A stretch of DNA of 64,000 nt, taken from positions 3,505,001 through 3,569,000 of the forward strand of contig NZ_CP107902.1 in assembly GCF_036013935.1 (NCBI RefSeq), in the 5' to 3' direction. The number at the start of each line of letters is the position of its first letter. The first letter of the stretch is position 1. The position numbers and the translations under genes were made by a program. The stretch comes from Streptomyces sp. NBC_00461. Its GTDB lineage: Bacteria; Actinomycetota; Actinomycetes; Streptomycetales; Streptomycetaceae. The notes below the pieces were generated by a model. The model was given only the letters and a program-made list of their open reading frames with translations. It was not told where the DNA came from and did no database searches. Positions 4,831 to 27,249 of the stretch are shown here, in pieces.

Positions 4831-4903
4831 GCCCCCGTAGCTCAGTGGATAGAGCAGGCGCCTTCTAAGCGCTTGGCCGCAGGTTCGAGTCCTGCCGGGG
4901 GCG
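4831..4903 (+). tRNA. tRNA-Arg (anticodon TCT)
   Basis: Complete cloverleaf: acceptor GCCCCCG pairs with CGGGGGC, the anticodon stem GGCGC/GCGCT encloses loop CTTCTAA with anticodon TCT, and the T arm is GCAGG-TTCGAGT-CCTGC. No CCA is encoded. The 3' part from 4858 is supplied by the integrated element, which restores the gene on integration; the displaced native 3' end lies at 27187-27249. Confidence 0.95.
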
Positions 4904-4920
4904 CACGTCTCCGCCCTCCC
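4858..4920 (+). repeat. left attachment site (63-bp direct repeat)
   Basis: Identical base for base to 27187-27249. It begins inside the anticodon stem of the tRNA and ends in the first arm of the terminator. Upstream of 4858 the copies diverge, which marks the core boundary. Confidence 0.95.
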
Positions 4921-5082: not shown

Positions 5083-6477
5083 TCAGTCGGTGTCGGCCGA
5101 CTCGGGGAGATCTCCGGCAGCCTCCAGGCGCCGTTTCAGGTCAGGCAGCTGCCCCTCGACGCACCGCGCGTAAGTGGCCAACAGCACCGGCACGCTGTTC
5201 CCGGCCCATTCGGCCACCTGGGCAGGTGGGATCCCGTCGTTGAGCCACTTCGTGAGGCGCGTGTGCCGGTTGTCGTACACCCGCCTCCCCGTGGGCGAGT
5301 CGAAGACGTGCGGGGGCAGGACGGCCTTGCGCGCACTGCGCCAAGCCCGGCGGATGACCGAGCCCGCGAGGATGCCACCTGTCTCCCCCTGGAACAGCAG
5401 ATCACCTGGCTTGAGCTGTTCATCCTCGATGTGCTGCCGCAGGATGCGCGTCAGGGCGGGATGCCCCGGCACGGTGCGCGTCTCGCCCTCGGCACGGCCC
5501 TTCAGGTCGCGTTCCTCGTGGATCTCTCCGGTGTCGGTCCACTGCTTGCCGACTTCCGGAGTCGCCGTGTGGATCAGCAGCTCGCACCACTGGTCCCTGA
5601 CGTCGGAAGCGGGAAGCGTCACGTCCTGCACCCGCATGGCTACGGCTTCCTCCGGCCGCAGAGCGCAGTAGTACAGCGTGGCGAAGAACGCGTGCAGCCG
5701 ATTCCCTCCACGCGGCCGGCGGCGAATCCAGTCGAGGAGTGCCGCCGCCTGGTCCGTGTTCATCAAGGACCGCTTGTCCACGGCATTGCTGGTCTTGGTG
5801 ACAGTCGTCGACTCCTTCCCCTTGGGGAGAGGGTTGGTCCGCAGGATGCGCCGCCTGATCCCATGCTTCATGACGACGTTGAGGATCCGGCGGTGGCGCT
5901 TCCTGGACCAGGCCGCCGCCTGCTTACCGTCGAGGCGCGTGTCGACGGCTCGCAGGACCTCATCGACCCTTTCCGCCTCCTCCCAGGCCGAGACCGGCAG
6001 GGAGTTGCGCTCCACCCATCTGAGGATCGTCACCACGTCTCGCGGGGCGTCCTCACGGCGGGTCGCATTGAACGCCCATTCGCGCAGCGCGGTCCGCACG
6101 GCCACCGGCGTGAACTGGGTCGGTTGGACCCGCAGCAGTGCGATGGTGACCGCTGTCAGGGTCTTGGCGATGTTCTTACGGCTGTTGCCCCCGAGCTCCG
6201 GCCAGCGGGCATCCACATACCCAACGGCGAACGCGTACCAGGTCATCGAAGCCGACTTGGAGCGGTGGGACACCGGCAGCCCGGTGGCGATGACGAAGGC
6301 CTCGCCCTTCCCCATTGCCCGGATCAGTTCGGAGCGGAAGCCCTCAGCGAGTGCGACGGTACTGAAGGGCTCACGCCAGCGCTTGCCTGCGACCTCCCAA
6401 CGCACGGTGTACGTGGTCTTTCGGGCGCCCTTGTACGTGAGGATCTTGTACACCTTCACGTCGTACGTGGTCTCCAT
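5083..6477 (-). CDS. int: tyrosine-type site-specific integrase
   Basis: Catalyses integration of the element into tRNA-Arg and, with Xis, its excision. The 464-aa protein has an N-terminal DNA-binding/SAM-like region (about 1-240) and a C-terminal catalytic domain. Visible catalytic residues are Arg274 in ALRPEEAVAM, the YDNRHTRL box (Arg404, His405) and nucleophile Tyr436 in LLATYARC. The box usually written AGHS reads AGNS (Asn427), a change seen in many actinobacterial integrases. The ATG at 6477 overlaps the xis stop by 1 nt (TGATG), so int, xis and rep form one coupled unit. It ends 163 bp from the att core, as expected. Confidence 0.95.
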   Translation of the reverse strand: METTYDVKVYKILTYKGARKTTYTVRWEVAGKRWREPFSTVALAEGFRSELIRAMGKGEAFVIATGLPVSHRSKSASMTWYAFAVGYVDARWPELGGNSRKNIAKTLTAVTIALLRVQPTQFTPVAVRTALREWAFNATRREDAPRDVVTILRWVERNSLPVSAWEEAERVDEVLRAVDTRLDGKQAAAWSRKRHRRILNVVMKHGIRRRILRTNPLPKGKESTTVTKTSNAVDKRSLMNTDQAAALLDWIRRRPRGGNRLHAFFATLYYCALRPEEAVAMRVQDVTLPASDVRDQWCELLIHTATPEVGKQWTDTGEIHEERDLKGRAEGETRTVPGHPALTRILRQHIEDEQLKPGDLLFQGETGGILAGSVIRRAWRSARKAVLPPHVFDSPTGRRVYDNRHTRLTKWLNDGIPPAQVAEWAGNSVPVLLATYARCVEGQLPDLKRRLEAAGDLPESADTD

Positions 6478-6674
6478 CAGGCGGCGTCCTCACGGTCGTC
6501 GAGCCAGTGGTCGAGATCGCTCCGCCGGATCCTGAGGTCGCCGTTCGGGAGCTTGATGCAGCGGGGCGCACGGCGTTTGGCGCGCCAGTCGTAGAAGGTC
6601 GAGCGCGAGACGGCCAGTTCGTCGCAGACCTCCGCGAGGGTGAGCATGGTGCGTGACCGGATGGCCGTGGTCAT
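6477..6674 (-). CDS. xis: excisionase, MerR-type helix-turn-helix (Xis)
   Basis: Directionality factor for excision. The 65-aa protein is a single winged helix-turn-helix of the MerR/excisionase (HTH_17) type: LTLAEVCDELAVSRSTFYDW is the helix-turn-helix, followed by the wing PRCIKLPNGDLRIRRSDLD. It sits between rep and int with an ATGA overlap to the rep stop and a 1-nt overlap to int, so its level is probably tied to both. Confidence 0.9.
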   Translation of the reverse strand: MTTAIRSRTMLTLAEVCDELAVSRSTFYDWRAKRRAPRCIKLPNGDLRIRRSDLDHWLDDREDAA

Positions 6675-8080
6675 TCCGTGCTCCCTTCGGTCAGGAGGGC
6701 GTCGCGGGCGGTCTCGCGGTTGGTCTGGAGGTCGCGGGCGATGGTCGCAGCGAGGGCGGCTTCGCCGGGTGTGTGGCCGTGGCCGGCGTACTGCCAGTCG
6801 GTCAGCACGAGGACGGTGTCCGGCTCGCGGTCGTCCAAGCCGAGGACGGAAGCCTCCTGTGCGGCGCGGTAGTCGGCGCGTTCCTGGCGGAGGGCGGCGA
6901 GGGTGGTGGAGTACATGCGCGACTTGGACGAGAAGTGCCCGCGGAAGCCGAGCATGTGTGCCCAGGCCCAGAGGCGCCGGTCCGGATAGAGGCTGTCCAG
7001 GTCGCGGCACGCAGTGATGAGCCATCGGGTGTGGTCGGGCACTTGGTGACGGTCGAGTTCGGCGAGTTCGCCGATACGGCGGTCCAAAGTGCCGGTGTTC
7101 TCGGCGGCCTTGGTGGCGTACTTGGCCACGTACGAGGCGACTGCCTGTTCGGTGATGTCGGAGCCGTCGCCGAAGGCTTTGACCGGGCGGACGTCGAGCT
7201 GTCGGCCCCATCGGAATGTTCGGCCGGGTTGGTCGTCGGCAGCCGGGACCGAGACGGACGTGTAAGAGTGCGCGGCAGCGGCACGTATCGCATCCGTGAG
7301 CAGGTCGACGGTGGCCCAGGCGGGAGGCGGTGTCCCGGGACCCTCGGGGCCGTCGAGGCGTACGACTGCATGGAAGTGGAGGGCCCCGCGCTTCTGGAAC
7401 TCGGCGACCTTGCCGTACGAGACACGCAGGTGGTCACCGAGTTCCCGACGGGCCAGGCCGCCGCGGGCAGCGAGTTCGCGGCGGAGCCGGGTGGTGAAGC
7501 GCTGCCAGAGCTGGCCGGCGTGGTTGTTGAACAGAACGGCGCCCGCGTAGTCGTAGGTGTTCGGGTCGAGGGCGGTGCCCAACTCCGGGGCGTCGGAGGC
7601 ATGTCGGGTGCCGCAGCGGCAGGAGCTCCCGTGATCGGGCCGGTTGTGGACCGGGCCGAACGAGGGGGCCGTGAGGGTGGCGAAGACGCGCGGGTGATCG
7701 CGGACGGCGGCGGGAATGTCTCGGCGGTCGTCCCCTGCGAGGCCGGTGCGGATCAGGTGGTAGGTGTCGCCCGCGTAGGTCCAGGCGCAGGACGGGCAGC
7801 GGGAGGCACGGCGGTTGCCGCAGGCAAGGCGCAGGCGTCCGCCCGGCTCGCTCTCGGTGGAGTAGTGGTGCAGCGTCTCGCCGGTGGTCTTGTCCTTGGT
7901 GAGCGTCCAGCCGGTCAGGTGGATCGGGTCGGAGCAGCCGCCGGTGCGGCGGATCTGGTCTTCCCAGCGGAGGTAGTCGGAGGCCGAGGCCACCCGGAGG
8001 ATGTCTCCGAGGGTGATCGGGTCGAGCGATTGGGCGGGCGTGGGCATCTTCAGTGCCGCAGGTGGGGCCCGGTGGGCCAT
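6671..8080 (-). CDS. repSA: RepSA-like replication initiator, HUH family
   Basis: Starts rolling-circle replication of the excised element. The 469-aa protein carries the HUH motif ALHFHAVVRL (His235 and His237) and the catalytic tyrosine motif SYVAKYATK (Tyr317/Tyr321). Upstream are Cys pairs (CGNRRASRCPSCAW, about 87-99) that may bind zinc. I chose ATG 8080 (MAHRAPPAAL), preceded by GGAAGG at moderate distance; the open frame continues upstream but without family-like sequence. The double-strand origin is expected in or beside this gene; I could not place it. Confidence 0.9.
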   Translation of the reverse strand: MAHRAPPAALKMPTPAQSLDPITLGDILRVASASDYLRWEDQIRRTGGCSDPIHLTGWTLTKDKTTGETLHHYSTESEPGGRLRLACGNRRASRCPSCAWTYAGDTYHLIRTGLAGDDRRDIPAAVRDHPRVFATLTAPSFGPVHNRPDHGSSCRCGTRHASDAPELGTALDPNTYDYAGAVLFNNHAGQLWQRFTTRLRRELAARGGLARRELGDHLRVSYGKVAEFQKRGALHFHAVVRLDGPEGPGTPPPAWATVDLLTDAIRAAAAHSYTSVSVPAADDQPGRTFRWGRQLDVRPVKAFGDGSDITEQAVASYVAKYATKAAENTGTLDRRIGELAELDRHQVPDHTRWLITACRDLDSLYPDRRLWAWAHMLGFRGHFSSKSRMYSTTLAALRQERADYRAAQEASVLGLDDREPDTVLVLTDWQYAGHGHTPGEAALAATIARDLQTNRETARDALLTEGSTE

Positions 8081-8171
8081 GCTGGGGGTTCCTTCCGGTT
8101 GCGAGATCGATCGGTGGGGACGGCTCCCGGGCGGCGGATGCTTGGCGGTATCAGGGCCGCCCGGGGGCCGG

Positions 8172-8495
8172 TCAGCGTCGCTTGGCCTCGGAGGTGAGCA
8201 GGGAGCGCAGGACGACGGCGCAGACGGCGACGGACGCGCCGGTGACGGCGACCGCGAGGAGCATCGAGACGAGAACCGCGCCGACGACCAGGACCACGGC
8301 TGTACCGCCGGCGACCAGGGCAAGCACGGATCCCGGAGTGAGCTGCACCGTGGGCCGCGAGGACGCCGGGGCCGCGACCGGCGAGGCGACGGGAGCGGGC
8401 TGTTGCTGGATGACGGCGGTCGGCTCGATGCCCCGGGCGGGCGGGGTGAGGAGGCCGGTCGGCTGAGGCATGACCGGGATCTTGGGACGGAGCAT
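8172..8495 (-). CDS. small transfer-associated membrane protein (SpdA/SpdB-like)
   Basis: A 107-aa protein with a Pro/Gln/Ala-rich N-terminal half and a hydrophobic C-terminal half (about residues 56-98) that fits two membrane segments, ending in a basic tail. Its position between rep and further small transfer genes is that of the spd (plasmid spread) genes, which aid movement of the element within the recipient mycelium. Identity rests on context more than on sequence. Confidence 0.65.
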   Translation of the reverse strand: MLRPKIPVMPQPTGLLTPPARGIEPTAVIQQQPAPVASPVAAPASSRPTVQLTPGSVLALVAGGTAVVLVVGAVLVSMLLAVAVTGASVAVCAVVLRSLLTSEAKRR

Positions 8496-9841: not shown

Positions 9842-11197
9842 TCAGGCGGTGGCCGGAGAAGCCTTGGCCGAAGGCACGGGAGCGGCAGCGGGGCCGGAGA
9901 GGGCGGGCCGGAACGGCGCCAGCTCAGGTAGGTCCGGGGTCCGGTCGGCGTGCCGGTTGCAGAGGTTCACAGCCTGGCGGAGCGATGTGTGCGGGGCACG
10001 GATACGGTGCCAGCCTCCGGAGGAGTCGCCCGCGATGGCGATCCCCCGCATCTCCGCCGGGATCTGGATGGCGGCGAGGACGGCGTCCGGGGAGATGTCG
10101 CCGAAGGCCATGTTGGCGGAGGTCTCGTCATTGACACGGTGAGCGGTACGGCCCGTGAGCTGGGCACGGAGCATGGTGATGCCCTTGCCGAGTTCGGATC
10201 CGAAACGCTGCCCGCAGATTTCGAGATAGATGCCGGCCGCGCGGCCGAGCTGGGCGAGGCGGACCAAGGCCGTGATGATCCGATCTCGCCGCTTCTCCTC
10301 CTCCTTGCTGGCGTACAGGGCGAGTTCGGCAACCTCGTCTACCAGGACGACGACCGGGGTCGGACGCAGTCCGTCTGGCAGGTCCCAGATGTCGGCGGCG
10401 ATCTCCGCGTCCGGTACGTCGACGGTGATCCGCTGCTGGGCACGGATGAGCTGATAGACGTCTGCCATCCGAGCCACGAGCGCGTCGAGCAGTTCGACGG
10501 CCGTGTCCGGGTTGTCGGCCAGCGCGGAGAACCTGCGGGCCAGCGGGAACAGCTCAACCCCTTGCTTGCAGTCGATACCGACGAGGGCGACGTCCATCGG
10601 GGCGAGTCCGGCGACCAGATTGCGTTGGTAGACGGACTTGCCGGATTCCGTGGCGCCGAGGGTGAGGGCGTGGGGTATCGCCCGGTAGTCGCGGTAGTGC
10701 ACCGAGCCGTCCTGCCGCAGGGCGACCGGTACCCGCATGGGCCGAGTGTCGGACGCTGCGGGCATCTGCACCCGTTTGAGCACGTCGTAGCCGGTCATCC
10801 GCACTTCAATGACGCCGGACCGCAGCTCACGCGAGGTCACGCCGTACATCGAGAACGAGTGGCGGAGCCTGTCCGAGGCTGCGGCGATGTCGAAGGCGTC
10901 CTGGCCGGGGCGCAGCTTGAGCCGCAGAACCAGGCCGGTGCGAGTCGGCCGCAGCCGCAGGATGCGCGGCGGACGGGACTCCGGCATCGGGCGGTTGGTG
11001 GCCCGTGCCAGGGCGAGCCGCCATCTCGCGGGCGGTACGGTCAGCCCGCACGCGTCCATGACGGAGCCGTACCGGACCAGGACGCGCAACGTGGCCAGGG
11101 TGACCCCGAAGGCCAGCCAGTACCAGGCGGGACGCCGCCACCGCAGGAGACCTGCGGCAGCGACGACCAGCACCAGAGCGACCGTGAATCCGGTCAT
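9842..11197 (-). CDS. traSA: TraSA/TraB-like FtsK-type DNA translocase
   Basis: The conjugation motor: it assembles at hyphal tips and pumps double-stranded element DNA into the recipient. The 451-aa protein has two N-terminal membrane segments (residues about 3-45), Walker A GATESGKS at 181-188, Walker B VVVLVDE at 282-288, and the FtsK/SpoIIIE-type stretch GIYLEICGQRF followed by LGKGITMLRAQLTGRTAHRV. The Pro/Ala-rich C-terminus may hold the clt-binding winged helix, but I cannot see it clearly. It starts 3 nt after the preceding gene. Confidence 0.95.
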   Translation of the reverse strand: MTGFTVALVLVVAAAGLLRWRRPAWYWLAFGVTLATLRVLVRYGSVMDACGLTVPPARWRLALARATNRPMPESRPPRILRLRPTRTGLVLRLKLRPGQDAFDIAAASDRLRHSFSMYGVTSRELRSGVIEVRMTGYDVLKRVQMPAASDTRPMRVPVALRQDGSVHYRDYRAIPHALTLGATESGKSVYQRNLVAGLAPMDVALVGIDCKQGVELFPLARRFSALADNPDTAVELLDALVARMADVYQLIRAQQRITVDVPDAEIAADIWDLPDGLRPTPVVVLVDEVAELALYASKEEEKRRDRIITALVRLAQLGRAAGIYLEICGQRFGSELGKGITMLRAQLTGRTAHRVNDETSANMAFGDISPDAVLAAIQIPAEMRGIAIAGDSSGGWHRIRAPHTSLRQAVNLCNRHADRTPDLPELAPFRPALSGPAAAPVPSAKASPATA

Positions 11198-13263: not shown

Positions 13264-13503
13264 ATGTCTTCGCCACCGGCCGCACGTCGCCGCCCGTCCG
13301 TCGCCGCCACAGCGGCCACATTCCAACACGGGCACGGGGAACTAACGGTGATCCCCAACGGTGCAGGTCAAAGACGCTTTGTGTTACCGAAAGAGGCCGG
13401 ATCGTGGTGGCGGCGGCATGCGGACCGACGCTGCCAGATGCGCAGGCGTCCATGCGACCCGCTGATCCCGCACCGGGCCACCGACCGGACTGCGAACGCG
13501 GCC
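13264..13503 (+). repeat. 240-bp non-coding repeat, copy A
   Basis: Aligns along its whole length with 21247-21487. The best-conserved block is CCCCAACGGTGCAGGTCAAA through GACGCTTTGTGTTACC and GAGGCCGGATCG. Indels of 1-3 nt in several places break all shared frames, so the unit is not a gene. Both copies are followed by TGGCTGGGGCGGTCGGCTCC (about 13524 and 21632). Confidence 0.8.
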
Positions 13504-13751
13504 GTGAACGGGGCGAACCCCGCTGTGGCTGGGGCGGTCGGCTCCACGACTTTAGCCAGCCACTTTGGCGCGAGCCTCGAAGATCATGGCCCCAACGTCG
13601 TGCTTTAACGGGCAGGTCCACAGACTGCCCGACGCGCCGGGAGCTTACGGGGCCATGATCACTCGCGCCAAAGCAGCTCCCGGCCAAAGTCGCTCCGCCG
13701 ACCGCTCTCGTGACCAGGGGCTGAGAAGCCCTAGTGCCTCACAATGCACTC

Positions 13752-14655: not shown

Positions 14656-16425
14656 GTGGGTAGCCAGTTGCGGGTCGGTGAGGTGCTGCGGTCCTCGCAG
14701 AACAGGGATCCGTCCGTCGAGGTCATGAACGGCTACCCGAACATCCACCATTTCACGGCTTCACAGATCCTTGCTCCGATACAGCTGAGCAAGGGGATCA
14801 ACCCGATCGCCGAGGTCAAGGTCGCACGCGTCGCACGGCGACCGGCGATCCTCATACGTTCGAGCCCGTGGAAGGCCGGCTCTGTCGAGACGCCCTGGCA
14901 CGACGAGTTCGACCTAGGAAGCGGGCGCGTTACCTACTTTGGAGATCATCGCGTTGATCACACCGTTCCCGTGGGAGAAACGCAGGGCAACAAGGTGCTG
15001 CGGAAGGCATGGACAAGCCATCGCGCGACGACCGTGCAGGAGCGGACCTTGGCGGCGCCACTGCTCGTCTTCGCAACGGTCACGCGCAACAAGACTCCCA
15101 AGGGATACGTAAAGTTTTGCGGCTTGGCGGTCATCGAGGACGTCGAAGAGATCGAGCAGAGCGACAAGGGACGGCCGTTCCCCAACTTCCGCTATGAACT
15201 GGCCCTTCTCGACCTGAGTACAGAAGATGACCTACTGAACTGGGCCTGGATCGAAGCACGCAGCGATCAGAGGCTCTCGACGGCTGAGGCGCTGAAACAC
15301 GCGCCGCGCTCTTGGCGTCGTTGGGTGGAAGGTGGCACTGCCGTCTTGTCGGAGGTACGCCAACGTCCCCTTCAGCTTGAGGAGCCCGAAGCAAGCCCTC
15401 GATCCGTCAACCGCCCTGCGGATGAAGACACGTTGTTCCCCACTCCTCCGCAGCCGCAGAGCGGGCCTGTATCCAGCGTCGAGCACGACGACCGGCAGCC
15501 AAAACTCACGGCAGCTCTGCTCATGGAGAGGCTAAGGAGTCTCAAGGTTCATCGCCAGGACGGACGCCCGAGCCGGCACAAACCCTTGGCGTTGATGTGG
15601 GCCATCGCGAGAAACGCCCGAGGAGAGTCGCGACTCTCTCCCTGGCCAGAGTTTCGTGACGAGGTGGGCAAGCTATTGATCGAGTTCGGCCGTCCCCAGT
15701 CGCCCCCGACTCCGGAGAAAGCATTCTGGCATCTGCGGACGAGCGGCTTGTGGGACATTGATGGCCTCCCGGCGGAGCAGGCAGGCAAGATCAGCGTCCC
15801 GGCGCTCGATAGATCCAAGCCTCAAGCAGGGTTCACTCACCAGGCTGACCGTCTGTTGAGGGATCCGTTCGTACGGTCCCAGGCGATCGCCGTCCTGCGA
15901 GAGACCTACTTCGCCGAGTTCGCTCAGCACAAACTGATGGAGCAACTTGGGCTGGCCGGCTACGAGAACGCAAGCGGCGTCGATGCACTGCCAGAAGAGC
16001 AAGAACAACAAGGTCCTGCCACTCGCCGCGCCACGAACACGTCCCGCATAGTGCGCGATATCGGACTGGCCAACAAGGTCAAGGAGATGCACTCCGACCA
16101 CTGTCAAGTCTGTGGAAAGCAGCTAGCGAAACGGTTCGGCACATACAGCGAAGCGGCCCACATCCGCGGCCTCGGGCAACCGCACAACGGACCCGACGAG
16201 CTTGCCAACCTCCTTGTGCTATGCCCCAACCACCACGTGCAATTCGACACTCTGGCGATCTACATCGATCCACACGGGATCATCCGCTCGACCGCGGACG
16301 GCCGTCGCAGAGGGGAGCTACGACGACTCCCGGCGCATCCCATCAGCGAAGCTCACCTGCGCTACCACCGGGCGCTATGCGGAAGAGACATACAGGTCGA
16401 GTCGGACGATCAAACAGGGATTTAA
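14656..16425 (+). CDS. ScoMcrA-like type IV restriction endonuclease (SRA-like + SBD + HNH)
   Basis: Predicted to cut DNA with modified bases or phosphorothioate backbone. The 589-aa protein has an N-terminal SRA/AspBHI-N-like domain (about 10-190), a linker, a sulfur-binding-type domain (about 290-400) recognisable by SRHKPLALMWAIAR and FWHLRTSGLWDI, and a C-terminal HNH nuclease: CQVC at 483, EAAHI at about 499, and ELANLLVLCPNHHVQFD. This layout matches ScoMcrA of S. coelicolor and relatives. GTG 14656 follows GGCGGGGGG. No methyltransferase is nearby, as expected for type IV. Domain boundaries come from motif recognition, not a search. Confidence 0.85.
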   Translation: MGSQLRVGEVLRSSQNRDPSVEVMNGYPNIHHFTASQILAPIQLSKGINPIAEVKVARVARRPAILIRSSPWKAGSVETPWHDEFDLGSGRVTYFGDHRVDHTVPVGETQGNKVLRKAWTSHRATTVQERTLAAPLLVFATVTRNKTPKGYVKFCGLAVIEDVEEIEQSDKGRPFPNFRYELALLDLSTEDDLLNWAWIEARSDQRLSTAEALKHAPRSWRRWVEGGTAVLSEVRQRPLQLEEPEASPRSVNRPADEDTLFPTPPQPQSGPVSSVEHDDRQPKLTAALLMERLRSLKVHRQDGRPSRHKPLALMWAIARNARGESRLSPWPEFRDEVGKLLIEFGRPQSPPTPEKAFWHLRTSGLWDIDGLPAEQAGKISVPALDRSKPQAGFTHQADRLLRDPFVRSQAIAVLRETYFAEFAQHKLMEQLGLAGYENASGVDALPEEQEQQGPATRRATNTSRIVRDIGLANKVKEMHSDHCQVCGKQLAKRFGTYSEAAHIRGLGQPHNGPDELANLLVLCPNHHVQFDTLAIYIDPHGIIRSTADGRRRGELRRLPAHPISEAHLRYHRALCGRDIQVESDDQTGI

Positions 16426-16480
16426 CTGCGTCACGCAATTCAGGCCCGCCGTAAGTCATCACGATCCGAGAGAGGTCGCC

Positions 16481-17170
16481 ATGATTCCCGTAACAGACTA
16501 CGAACCAACAGTCGAAATACCCGAGCAAGCCAGCTTTTGGATGCCAACAGAGGATGACATTCCAGACGATGAAGGGTTGGGGTATTTTCGTGACGTTTGG
16601 ATGATCCTGAATGAGCCATTAAAATATAGTCAACCTCTCATAAAATCCGAAACGGAATTTATCGAGATCGTTGATAGCGTCGCAAAGTCAGTCGAGGACT
16701 ACGAAACTCTAGCTAGTCTGATCGAAAACGGCGAAACGGGCCGAGTCGATCTCGGTTCACTCCAACACCGCTTCGAGGTGGAAGCGCCGGCAATCTTCGA
16801 TCGAGCAGAAGAGGACGAACTACCTCTGCGAAGCCTGGAGCTCGGCGTCGCCGGCCTCTCGTATGCCTTGTCGACGATCGGAGCTGTGCCCGTCGCGAGC
16901 TGTCGGGGCCACATCGGCGGGTGGTCAGACCAACCCGTAGTTTACGCCGCGATAGACGAACAACGGGCCCATTGGCTTCAACCGCTGGTGCGAGAGGCGG
17001 GATGCGGATTCCACATTGGCGTAAATCGGGAAGAATTCTTGGCCATTGATGGGCCATCCATCCGTCACACGAATGATCTAGCGCGAGCTGTCATATCAAA
17101 GTTTGACGGGCGAGCGAAAATCTTTGATAGGTGGCTCGACGTAGAATCGATTTACCATCGCTACGAGTGA
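16481..17170 (+). CDS. hypothetical protein with SCRGH motif, in restriction cluster
   Basis: 229-aa protein of unknown function between two nuclease genes, 56 bp after the first. The acidic N-terminal half is helical; the C-terminal half holds the notable segment LSYALSTIGAVPVASCRGHI (Cys141, His144), then QPVVYAAID and REAGCGFHIG (Cys175). The invariant-looking Cys/His residues suggest metal binding or catalysis, but I assign no activity. Codon 47 is TTA (16619-16621), so translation may depend on bldA. GC is visibly lower than the surrounding genome, a sign of transfer. The ribosome-binding site is a modest GAGAGG. Confidence 0.75.
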   Translation: MIPVTDYEPTVEIPEQASFWMPTEDDIPDDEGLGYFRDVWMILNEPLKYSQPLIKSETEFIEIVDSVAKSVEDYETLASLIENGETGRVDLGSLQHRFEVEAPAIFDRAEEDELPLRSLELGVAGLSYALSTIGAVPVASCRGHIGGWSDQPVVYAAIDEQRAHWLQPLVREAGCGFHIGVNREEFLAIDGPSIRHTNDLARAVISKFDGRAKIFDRWLDVESIYHRYE

Positions 17171-17332
17171 CGTCGTCGTCCTTGATTTCCGAGGACGACA
17201 AGGGCCACCAGGATGCCAGTCGAAGCCAAACGGTCGACCTCGCAAAGTCAAGCACACCACACACGTAGAGTATCTAGCGGGAATTACCACGCTACCGCCG
17301 CACACTTAGAATTGAGAGCTAAGGAATTTTCC

Positions 17333-18136
17333 ATGCCCCAAATGAAAGATTGGAAAGAGTATCAGATCAAGGTATCCGAAACACTCGCGGAATTCGGCTT
17401 CACGACAAAGGTTGAGGAGGTAATCGAAGGAGCCAGGGGACGGCATGAGATTGATGTCACAGCGCGAATTAGATACGCAGGAGTCGATCAACTATGGATC
17501 ATAGAGTGCAAGAAATGGAAGCGCCCAGTGCCGAAGGAACGCATACTGGCCTTTACTTCGATTGTCGAAGACGTTGGAGCAGACCGTGGACTGATTTTCG
17601 CGGAAGGCGGATTTCAGGCTGGCGCAGTACGCGCATCCCGCAATACCAGCATCACACTCACAAACCTGACTGACTTCGTCAGTAATTCTGAAGATGAACT
17701 TTCCTCAATCAAGATAGGCGGCCTGATGAGAAGAATCGCCGAGCTTGAAAACAAATACCATTCCATTTGGAATCTCGACGAGAAAGAGAGGGGGAGAGTT
17801 CAGTCTCGATATGTAGGTCCAGAGGCCTTCGGCTTGAAAGAACCGATCGCAGTAATGGCCTGTCTCTCCACCATGAAGGATTCGCTTGAAGCGGCAAGTT
17901 TCGGGCGGTGGCCTGTACCCTACCGCGCGCTAGACCAGGATGACTCAAACGGGCTGATCGATGTTAAAAACTGGGATGGCCTCCTCTTCGTTACCGAACA
18001 AACCCTTGAGACATGCTCTCGGATTTACGAACACATGGTGGGTAATGGAAGTAGCGTTAGCCGTTGGCAAGATCTACAACCGTCGGATCTGACAGACCTT
18101 TTGTCTGCGCTTCGCAACGGGCGCTCTCCTAGATAA
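17333..18136 (+). CDS. Mrr-like restriction endonuclease
   Basis: 267-aa protein with an N-terminal PD-(D/E)xK nuclease domain of the Mrr_cat type: GRHEIDVTARIRYAGVDQLW supplies Asp41 and IIECKKWKRP supplies Glu58-x-Lys60, followed by the typical helix DRGLIFAEGGFQAGAVRAS. The C-terminal 150 residues are not recognised and may bind DNA or a partner. Start ATG 17333 (MPQMKDWKEY) has AAGGAA upstream; the frame is open further upstream without homology. Low GC, same strand as the two preceding genes. Likely a methyl-directed (type IV) or accessory nuclease. Confidence 0.8.
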   Translation: MPQMKDWKEYQIKVSETLAEFGFTTKVEEVIEGARGRHEIDVTARIRYAGVDQLWIIECKKWKRPVPKERILAFTSIVEDVGADRGLIFAEGGFQAGAVRASRNTSITLTNLTDFVSNSEDELSSIKIGGLMRRIAELENKYHSIWNLDEKERGRVQSRYVGPEAFGLKEPIAVMACLSTMKDSLEAASFGRWPVPYRALDQDDSNGLIDVKNWDGLLFVTEQTLETCSRIYEHMVGNGSSVSRWQDLQPSDLTDLLSALRNGRSPR

Positions 18137-18510: not shown

Positions 18511-19578
18511 TCACCAATCGACCCGAGTTACTCGATATCCTGGTAGTTCGACCAATAGGGCCGCTCGTTCGACATTGGTCAAACCCTCATGGGATGACTC
18601 GTATGTCTCAATGAAGGCATTGACACCCTTCGATTTTGCGGCCTCTATAAACTTCACTCTCTCGGTGGTGTCTGAGGACTGATCCAAAGCGCGTTTACTC
18701 ATTGCGCTCTCGATCATCTTTACACCCATGCACTCTAGCACTTTCGCGGCTCGGAATCGCGGAATGAAACTAACACCATCCAGGATCAATTGCGTCAACG
18801 CGACAGCCGCCTTGGGATTTGTCAAGTTTCGACGGACCCAGAAAGGCGCGCCATCGGCGGTACGATGAATTGCCGATACTAGAGCGAACGCAAGAATGTC
18901 CCGGTCCACAGGTGGGGTGCTCCGCAATTTTGCTAGCTGGTGCGGGGTGAGCAGGTAATCTTCATCCCATTCGTCGTTCCACAACTCGTATAGCCGCCTA
19001 GGTGAATCCTCAAAGTCTCCGGCGGTTTTCCATCCGGTCTTCGGTCTAACTGAGCACTTGATGGCTTCGAGTGCGCGCTTCAGATCTTCCCGACCTGCCT
19101 TTGTGTCGAGCGATACGCGATTAACGCCGTCGATGTCAGAAAATACGCGTCCCACGCCTACGGAGGCGATTATGGTTTTCCCGGGATAAAGAGCGCTAGC
19201 CATACCAGCTTCGAAGATTACGTTCGGCCGAGACTGTCCCGCTGGATGCAGCAACGAGGCGTCGTCGTGCGCCTGGTTGAAAAATTCCTTCTTTAGCGCT
19301 GCGTCTTCGTCAGGTGTCATCAAGACGATAATTGCTTGGACGGGCTTCATCCCCGCTTCGACTATTTGGAGATTCGTGGGGAGGCCACGCCCGGTATCCT
19401 CAATTGCTGCGTGTCGAGCGTCTGCCCAGCTGAATTCTTTGAGCCCGAACAGAGCAAGAAGCGATGTGAGGGAATCCTTAGCCACGTAGTTGCGGCCATG
19501 AACGACGAAATATCTTTTCCGCTGTTCATCTGCTGGGTTCATGTTAGGAGACGTGTTACGCCTAGGCCTAGAGCTCAT
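18511..19578 (-). CDS. TIR-like nucleotide-binding effector with helical C-terminus
   Basis: Predicted NAD-consuming defence effector. The 355-aa protein has an N-terminal TIR-like domain of the predicted nucleotide-binding type (PF10137-like): KRYFVVHGRN at about 21-30, IIVLMTPDEDA at 83-93, and RPNVIFEAGM with the presumed catalytic Glu123. The C-terminal 190 residues are helical and HEAT-like (PKAAVALTQLILDGVSFIPR, RFRAAKVLECMGVKMIESAM). ATG 19578 has GGAGAGG 8 nt upstream; 19605 is an alternative. No cyclase or CBASS partner lies beside it, so trigger and partner are unknown. Low GC relative to the backbone. Confidence 0.8.
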   Translation of the reverse strand: MSSRPRRNTSPNMNPADEQRKRYFVVHGRNYVAKDSLTSLLALFGLKEFSWADARHAAIEDTGRGLPTNLQIVEAGMKPVQAIIVLMTPDEDAALKKEFFNQAHDDASLLHPAGQSRPNVIFEAGMASALYPGKTIIASVGVGRVFSDIDGVNRVSLDTKAGREDLKRALEAIKCSVRPKTGWKTAGDFEDSPRRLYELWNDEWDEDYLLTPHQLAKLRSTPPVDRDILAFALVSAIHRTADGAPFWVRRNLTNPKAAVALTQLILDGVSFIPRFRAAKVLECMGVKMIESAMSKRALDQSSDTTERVKFIEAAKSKGVNAFIETYESSHEGLTNVERAALLVELPGYRVTRVDW

Positions 19579-19969
19579 GTTTCCGCCTCTCCAATGAAGC
19601 CCCAACTTCTGGCTGAACCGAGAGATCCCTCGTCTTCAAGGCTAGGACCCAAGGAGTTGCGTCGCACGTCAGGCCTCGCAGCCGCAGCCGACCGCGCCTG
19701 TCCGGTCCCGCCGGGATAAGGCCCTGGCCTGCCCGAGGGCTACCCGAGGGCTACCCGAGGATTACCGAGTCCAACAAGGCTCCTCACAACGGCAGCATGT
19801 CGGTGACTGTGCCACCCAGGAGACCGACCGGGCGGCTTACATCCGCACTGTCGCGGAGGACTGAGTCCAAGAGTGCGGACCATCTGTGGACTGGATCCGC
19901 CTGACCTACCGCGGTTGAGCCCGTGGCCTGCTGCGTTCCGTGGGTGCCAAAGGCCTCCGGAGCCGTGTG
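19579..19969. other. intergenic region upstream of the TIR gene
   Basis: No gene seen. Contains a small tandem repeat, CCCGAGGGCTA three times with decay (about 19733-19765), and the TIR gene promoter region on the minus strand (ACGTGTTACGCCTAGGCCTA near 19550-19570). Confidence 0.5.
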
Positions 19970-21246: not shown

Positions 21247-21487
21247 GTCTGTCTCCGCCACCGGCGCACGCCGCCGCCCGCCCGTCACCGCACGCAGCGG
21301 CCAAACTCCAACAAGAGCACGGGGGCGAACGATGATCCCCAACGGTGCAGGTCAAAGACGCTTTGTGTTACCTAAAAGAGGCCGGATCGCGGTGGCGGCG
21401 GCATACGGTCCGACGCTGCCAGATACGCGGGCGTCCGAACGGTCCGCTGATCCCGCACCAGGACACCGGCCGTACGGCGAACGCGGC
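21247..21487 (+). repeat. 240-bp non-coding repeat, copy B
   Basis: Partner of 13264-13503 (see there). Differences include small indels such as CCGAAAGAGG versus CCTAAAAGAGG, which argue against a coding role. Confidence 0.8.
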
Positions 21488-21794
21488 CAAAGAGCACCCC
21501 ACAACCGACCACGGACCAGCGCAGGCCCCCACCATCCGCAGCGGCCAAGCATCCCCCGACATGCGACCAGCACGGACGCGAGCAACCTGACGACGGCGAG
21601 AAGAGTGAAGGTGGCGGGGTGAGGGGTGAGTGGGTGGCTGGGGCGGTCGGCTCCGCCACGAGAACACCAAAGGGGCACGCTGGATCCTCAAGTTCTCCTC
21701 AGAACACCGATCTTCTAATTGTCGCGGACATGCCCTGCACATAATGTCCAAGTGCTCGATCGCCACGGGGGCGGTCCACCAGCAAAGGTGTCAC

Positions 21795-22933: not shown

Positions 22934-23295
22934 TCGAAGCAGCCAGTGCGTACAGCAGTGACGTACAGCAACCGCAGCAGCCACGAGTGACCGCCCGAAG
23001 CCGTTAATACCCCCTTGAGTAGGGCGGATGACCTCAGCGACCTACCCGCCCGTAGTTCGCATCGAGGGGCGGCCTGAGTGTCTAACTGCGTGACAATGCC
23101 CGCGAACGGCTCCGAACAACCGCGGACGCCAGGGAACTATCGCAGCAGGCCAGCAGCACATGCCGCCCAGCTCAGTCCCTGAACCAAGTTGCTTCGGGAC
23201 GAAGAGGTCGTGAGCTAAACGCCGTCGTTCTCGATCCGCCGGGCACGATAGGGGCACCGCCGACGCTGGTCGACGGTGCCCGGGGTGGCGCGGGG
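22934..23295. other. non-coding region with GTACAGCA repeat copy 3
   Basis: No gene; the repeat fills 22950-23073. The remainder shows nothing recognisable. Confidence 0.5.
22950..23073 (+). repeat. GTACAGCA repeat, copy 3 (long form)
   Basis: Starts GTACAGCAGTGACGTACAGC, then AACCGCAGCAGCC; ends GACCTCAGCGACCTACCCGC and CCGTAGTTCGCATCGAGGGG, nearly the same as copy 2. The segment between copies 2 and 3 holds the TIR gene, the tRNA-Ser scar and the secreted pair. Confidence 0.8.
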
Positions 23296-27186: not shown

Positions 27187-27249
27187 GCGCCTTCTAAGCG
27201 CTTGGCCGCAGGTTCGAGTCCTGCCGGGGGCGCACGTCTCCGCCCTCCC
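27187..27249 (+). repeat. right attachment site (displaced tRNA-Arg 3' end)
   Basis: Perfect copy of 4858-4920. It lacks the 5' half of the tRNA and is not a functional tRNA gene. This is the native chromosomal 3' end displaced by insertion. Confidence 0.95.

Follow-up and report, generated by a model that had tools for sequence, protein, structure and literature searches.

Do three adjacent genes of a Streptomyces mobile element act together as one system against foreign DNA? The question is raised by a window of 64,000 nucleotides (the whole stretch of DNA analysed here; contig NZ_CP107902.1, positions 3,505,001 to 3,569,000) from Streptomyces sp. NBC_00461, whose genome is a single contig of 10.37 Mb. 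The window contains three plus-strand open reading frames (ORFs), P1, P2 and P3 (Table 1), which an initial annotation had proposed to be a ScoMcrA-like nuclease, an unrecognised protein and an Mrr-like nuclease working jointly. All three were found where that annotation had placed them, within a conjugative element: a pSAM2-like actinomycete integrative and conjugative element (AICE) with an integrase, RepSA, TraB/FtsK and three GntR/UTRA regulators, delimited by an exact 63-bp repeat. Their low GC content was found as well (61.8% in P1, 53.0% in P2 and 50.7% in P3 against 65.1% for the whole element). With moderate confidence we read the region as defence cargo of the AICE, composed of genes that also occur separately: P1 would be a nuclease acting on DNA with 5-methylcytosine (5mC) or 5-hydroxymethylcytosine (5hmC), P3 would be independent of it, and P2 may be a binder of S-adenosylmethionine (SAM) and nucleic acid that tunes a 5mC system.

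Joint action of the three genes predicts that they travel together. For each gene we drew 392 Streptomyces genomes (same request for each gene, taken as the same genomes) and searched them at E ≤ 1e-60 for P1, E ≤ 1e-3 for P2 and E ≤ 1e-8 for P3. Carriers, own genome (G000) included, numbered 31, 12 and 5, respectively. Both ends of P1 were matched in five genomes only (G000, G280, G770, G706 and, in two frames, G759); matches in the remaining 26 cover either the SRA part or the sulfur-binding domain (SBD)-HNH part. P1 and P2 coincided in G000 and in G248, where the P1 match is an MspJI-type SRA-Mrr enzyme; chance alone would give about one such overlap (31 × 12 / 392), and about 0.15 for full-length P1 with P2. 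P3 occurred with P1 or P2 in none of the genomes besides G000. Since the genes are rare, the power of these counts is low and the missing overlaps of full-length P1 with P2 are weak evidence.

Stronger evidence, outweighing the overlap counts, comes from the solitary occurrence of P1 and P3 elsewhere. No P2 or P3 was present within the 16–18 kb read around any of four full-domain P1 relatives (L065–L068, one lying in two frames), and no P1 or P2 within 15–16 kb at any of three loci with P3 relatives. One P3 relative (81% identity, G130) adjoins a GmrSD_N gene, and another (55%, G108) lies near TniQ-type and OLD-like genes; one P1 relative (L065) adjoins MzaC- and MzaD-like genes. Of 203 P1 relatives at E ≤ 1e-30, the best 120 were listed, and the first 101 of these (P0042–P0142, own protein included) are of the three-domain kind; those of the 101 with a named organism are all from Streptomyces. 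Among the matches listed, with contigs told apart by their length, only the contig of the window combines a three-domain member of the P1 family with one of 106 P2-family members. A common strand, gaps of 55 bp (P1–P2) and 162 bp (P2–P3) and the 33-bp direct repeats around the genes do speak for a three-gene system; together with the stepwise fall of GC content from P1 to P3, the separate lives of the genes make it highly improbable, and we did not retain it. One part of the proposal that stands is that the domains of the end genes fit roles against foreign DNA.

P1 combines features of three known kinds of modification-dependent nuclease. Its N-terminal domain, with 102 bits for PF18062 against a gathering score of 27 and the MspJI-common block RSSPWKAG...PWHDEFD intact, is shared with the MspJI family (MspJI, AspBHI, SgeI); SgeI has 49% identity over 47% of P1. 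Whereas MspJI-family enzymes end in an Mrr-type PD-(D/E)xK nuclease, which a Pfam search did not find in P1, P1 has an SBD and an HNH nuclease in its place. The C-terminal region resembles that of TagI, an SRA-HNH enzyme (E 4.9e-28), as well as HNH_2; in the same search, however, the SRA of P1 matches MspJI and not the SRA of TagI, and P1 adds the SBD. SBD and HNH, with the HNH catalytic residues kept, are common to P1 and the phosphorothioate (PT)-dependent nucleases of ScoMcrA type, but the order SBD-SRA-HNH given for ScoMcrA in an excerpt of PMC7461809 differs from the SRA-SBD-HNH order of P1, and P1 misses the cut-off of the ScoMcrA-type family NF045808 in NCBIfam (89.8 bits versus 180). 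The nuclease domains named in the initial annotation are thus present, except that the SRA is N-terminal and of MspJI rather than ScoMcrA type. The catalytic and zinc residues C483, C486, H502, N518, C523, H526, H527 and D531 are each conserved in 100 or 101 of the 101 family members. By analogy with MspJI and TagI, the SRA of P1 would bind incoming DNA with 5mC or 5hmC, the presumed substrate, and paired HNH domains would cleave it. The genome has four C5-methyltransferase matches (at ∼0.35 and ∼1.23 Mb), all outside the AICE; if these enzymes are active, P1 would therefore need a limit by sequence context. They agree with the earlier claim that no methyltransferase accompanies the genes as far as the C5 type goes, other types not having been sought in the element.

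Recognition of PT-modified DNA, as in ScoMcrA, had also been suggested and is unlikely for this P1. The sulfur pocket of ScoMcrA consists of H116, R/K117, Y164 and P165, and the P165N replacement abolished the DNA shift (excerpt of PMC6224610). These positions align to H308, K309, K355 and A356 of P1: His and Lys are kept, Tyr and Pro are replaced. In the P1 family the Tyr is present in 98 and the Pro in 97 of 101 members, and the pair is missing in four (P1 of the window, P0121, P0131 and P0137). According to the same excerpt of PMC6224610, Y164 is kept in just 7 of 23 SBD homologues. The SBD is still recognisable; because the Tyr-Pro pair is gone, PT sensing has probably been lost in this copy. 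A second SBD-HNH (ScoMcrA-like) protein of 572 aa, encoded in the same genome at ∼5.935 Mb (L104:5160-6878, minus strand), has the pocket residues, with LHRP and YPFWAL at the pocket. A genome that has an otherwise intact SRA-SBD-HNH enzyme without the pocket, and a separate ScoMcrA-like protein with it, is a natural setting for asking what the SBD adds to double-sensor restriction enzymes. The idea that the loss is an adaptation to a PT-modified host was not supported: the genome had no match to the family accession that we take to be that of DndC, a search whose cut-off none of 14 control genomes passed (thus no strong positive control) and which did not extend to other PT systems.

P2 deserves more interest than it had been given. 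As the initial annotation held, it is unrecognised, with no match in Pfam, PADLOC or NCBIfam and none by sequence in PDB; given the PADLOC result, its assignment to a known defence component was not retained. Its family is actinobacterial, and its members lie mostly in loci that write or read 5mC. With loci from one genome counted once (L008/L074, L003/L010/L075, L006/L012, L019/L013 and others), the stretches read at 12 of 16 P2-family loci contain a C5 methyltransferase but no MspJI-type enzyme; three of the remaining four have an MspJI-type reader beside the P2-family gene. Several Streptomyces loci (L021–L023, L072, L073 and L019/L076) combine a C5 methyltransferase, Mza-like genes, mostly Vsr, and the P2-family gene, which is possibly an extra component of Mza-like systems. 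According to an excerpt of PMC9523054, mzaA is a sigma factor.

Should P2 then be seen as the partner of P1, with P3 separate? In such a two-gene unit P2 would assist or restrain the MspJI-type 5mC reader. P2 starts 55 bp past P1, and in two other AICEs a P2-family gene accompanies an MspJI-type nuclease and a MORC-like ATPase, at ∼2.5 kb in L002 (where the contig ends within the nuclease) and ∼12.5 kb in L003/L075; to this extent the suggested link of the middle protein with nucleases of modified DNA recurs. The three-domain P1 relatives do without it, both at L065–L068 and, among the matches listed, on every contig but that of the window, and 12 of the 16 P2-family loci pair the gene with a methyltransferase instead. 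We consider the two-gene unit doubtful. In both AICEs the MORC-like HATPase_c_3 protein and the MspJI-type nuclease form a divergent pair (L002:10812-14179 and L075:5868-9326); no mention of MORC and MspJI together was found in the open-access literature searched.

AICEs and genomic islands acquire cargo, and P2 could be a defence-island passenger with an unrelated job, such as RNA modification, that reached 5mC loci by hitch-hiking. The orientation and position of P2 relative to the methyltransferase, which vary among loci, agree with that. Its neighbours (a C5 methyltransferase in 12 of 16 loci, an MspJI-type reader in three of the other four) are a narrow choice for random cargo, and in L021, L022 and L073 the ends of the P2-family ORF and of a convergent methyltransferase ORF are 8 bp apart, though these loci are closely related. 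We regard hitch-hiking as unlikely. We prefer the reading in which P2, no part of the nuclease, would bind SAM and modified nucleic acid and act as an enzyme or reader tuning a neighbouring 5mC system. The fold and the neighbours point to this role; SAM binding, like the substrates and any P1–P2 interaction, is what we infer.

The fold in question is that of TYW3/Taw3, SAM-dependent tRNA methyltransferases of the archaeal and eukaryotic wyosine pathway. A TYW3-like fold is predicted for a relative of P2, and P2 itself may have it. Profile alignment (hhalign) puts the S-C-x-G core of the TYW3 SSCSGR motif in register with the P2 family, in an alignment that is not significant; in the family alignment A3 S-C is invariant and the other positions vary, His or another residue standing for the Arg of TYW3. 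Assignment to TYW3 by sequence failed, as Pfam, PDB profile search and hhalign all remained below significance; PF02676 was absent from the families matched by 39 P2-family members at E ≤ 10 (the precomputed Pfam column of a second subgroup is empty), and no TYW3-family match exists in this genome. The P2 family, by contrast with TYW3, occurs in actinobacterial restriction loci. Among 396 genomes drawn from the phylum, P2 was present in this genome only, and in a first draw from the genus in 9 of 295; searches of plasmids, phages and IMG/VR with P2, and of plasmids with P0206, gave no match. A more speculative reading, less likely than not, would make the SCRGH/SCSGG family a branch of the TYW3 class (SHS2 plus RAGNYA) that in bacteria works on DNA; its members would be small SAM-dependent enzymes or readers for 5mC restriction systems (Mza-like loci, Dcm/Vsr, MspJI-type nucleases), and AICEs would account for part of their spread. 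If so, a methyltransferase class described for tRNA modification in archaea and eukaryotes would extend to bacterial DNA defence, and a component of Mza-like loci would have been overlooked. Apart from PMC9974470, which matched the search, and a paper that has it merely as a reference, no account linking TYW3 to restriction-modification was found in the open-access literature searched.

The Mrr family targets modified DNA, and P3 (43.3 bits for Mrr_cat against a gathering score of 21) may act alone on DNA with other modifications. The start at 17333 is more likely than that at 17213, judging from the 81% relative: this ORF of 268 aa begins to align at residue 3 of the protein read from 17333. 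Besides the two relatives described above, G701 has a weak and G050 a partial match. Plasmids gave 39 records with P3 matches, all below 60% identity, and no P1 match at E ≤ 1e-30. In G108 the P3 relative lies near both ends of the linear chromosome (L070:7257-8165 and the opposite end of G108:C1), an arrangement like that of terminal inverted repeats.

Table 1. Features of the P1–P3 region and of the AICE that carries it (window coordinates)
Feature	Position	Strand	Evidence
P1, MspJI-type SRA + SBD + HNH modification-dependent nuclease (predicted), 589 aa, GTG start	14656..16425	+	domain matches; 101-sequence family
P1 aa 41-227, AspBHI/MspJI N-terminal domain (5mC-reading type)	14776..15336	+	PF18062 3.8e-29; MspJI 4f0p E 1.6e-50 over aa 7-241
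P1 aa 290-433, SBD	15523..15954	+	PDB matches (7ccd E 9e-14; 5zmo 1.7e-9)
P1 codons Lys355-Ala356 (Tyr-Pro of sulfur pocket in 97/101 family members)	15718..15723	+	family alignment
P1 aa 483-538, HNH nuclease with H502, N518, H527, D531	16102..16269	+	HNH_2 2.1e-9
P2, SCRGH-family protein, 229 aa, ATG start, possible TYW3-like fold	16481..17170	+	family alignments; predicted fold of a relative
P2 aa 140-144, SCRGH motif	16898..16912	+	family alignment
P3, Mrr_cat PD-(D/E)xK-type nuclease, 267 aa, ATG 17333 preferred to 17213	17333..18136	+	Mrr_cat 4.5e-11
33-bp direct repeat, left of P1	14456..14488	+	repeat search
33-bp direct repeat, right of P3	18326..18358	+	repeat search
33-bp direct repeat, third copy	22950..22982	direct	repeat search
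Left attachment repeat	4858..4920		starts in tRNA-Arg 3′ end, 63 bp
Right attachment repeat	27187..27249		exact copy of left 63-bp repeat
AICE integrase	5083..6477	-	PF00589 2.6e-5; 24.5 bits, below cut-off of 27.1
AICE replication initiator RepSA	6671..8323	-	PF20199 3.8e-148
AICE TraB/FtsK transfer protein	9842..11197	-	PF01580 5.5e-44

The three 33-bp copies bracket P1–P3 and then the next segment. A 23-bp core (at most two mismatches) was present in four of seven Streptomyces genomes (five copies in G000, three in G126, six each in G754 and G130) and absent from G280, G770 and G248; a reversed-pattern control gave none. Neighbours were inspected for 7 of the 17 core copies outside the window. 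One copy in G126 has an MspJI-type gene at a distance of 0.5 kb, one in G754 a P2-family gene at 3 kb, and one in G000 the ScoMcrA-like gene at 1.6 kb; in G130 one adjoins a PIN_8 gene, one is at an OGG-like gene and two (L102) have only a lipoprotein-like match nearby. The repeat may mark the boundary of cargo cassettes, an after-the-fact observation; 16 of 17 scanned stretches with P1, P2 or P3 homologues had no copy of it, and IMG/VR had none. A role as a hairpin recombination site was rejected, as the single-strand folds are not unusual (z of −0.21, −1.34 and 1.50).

A promoter scan gave two hits versus 1.6 expected, and no terminators. Two stretches of the AICE (13281-13550 and 21265-21659) are duplicated, with a 114-nt pair 87% alike plus neighbours at a spacing of ∼7984–8109, which suggests that an earlier duplication took place around the cargo. 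The repeat-bounded segment next to P1–P3 encodes a CAP12/Pycsar-type TIR domain protein of 364 aa (18511-19605, minus strand; PF10137 1.7e-17; PADLOC PDC-S35).
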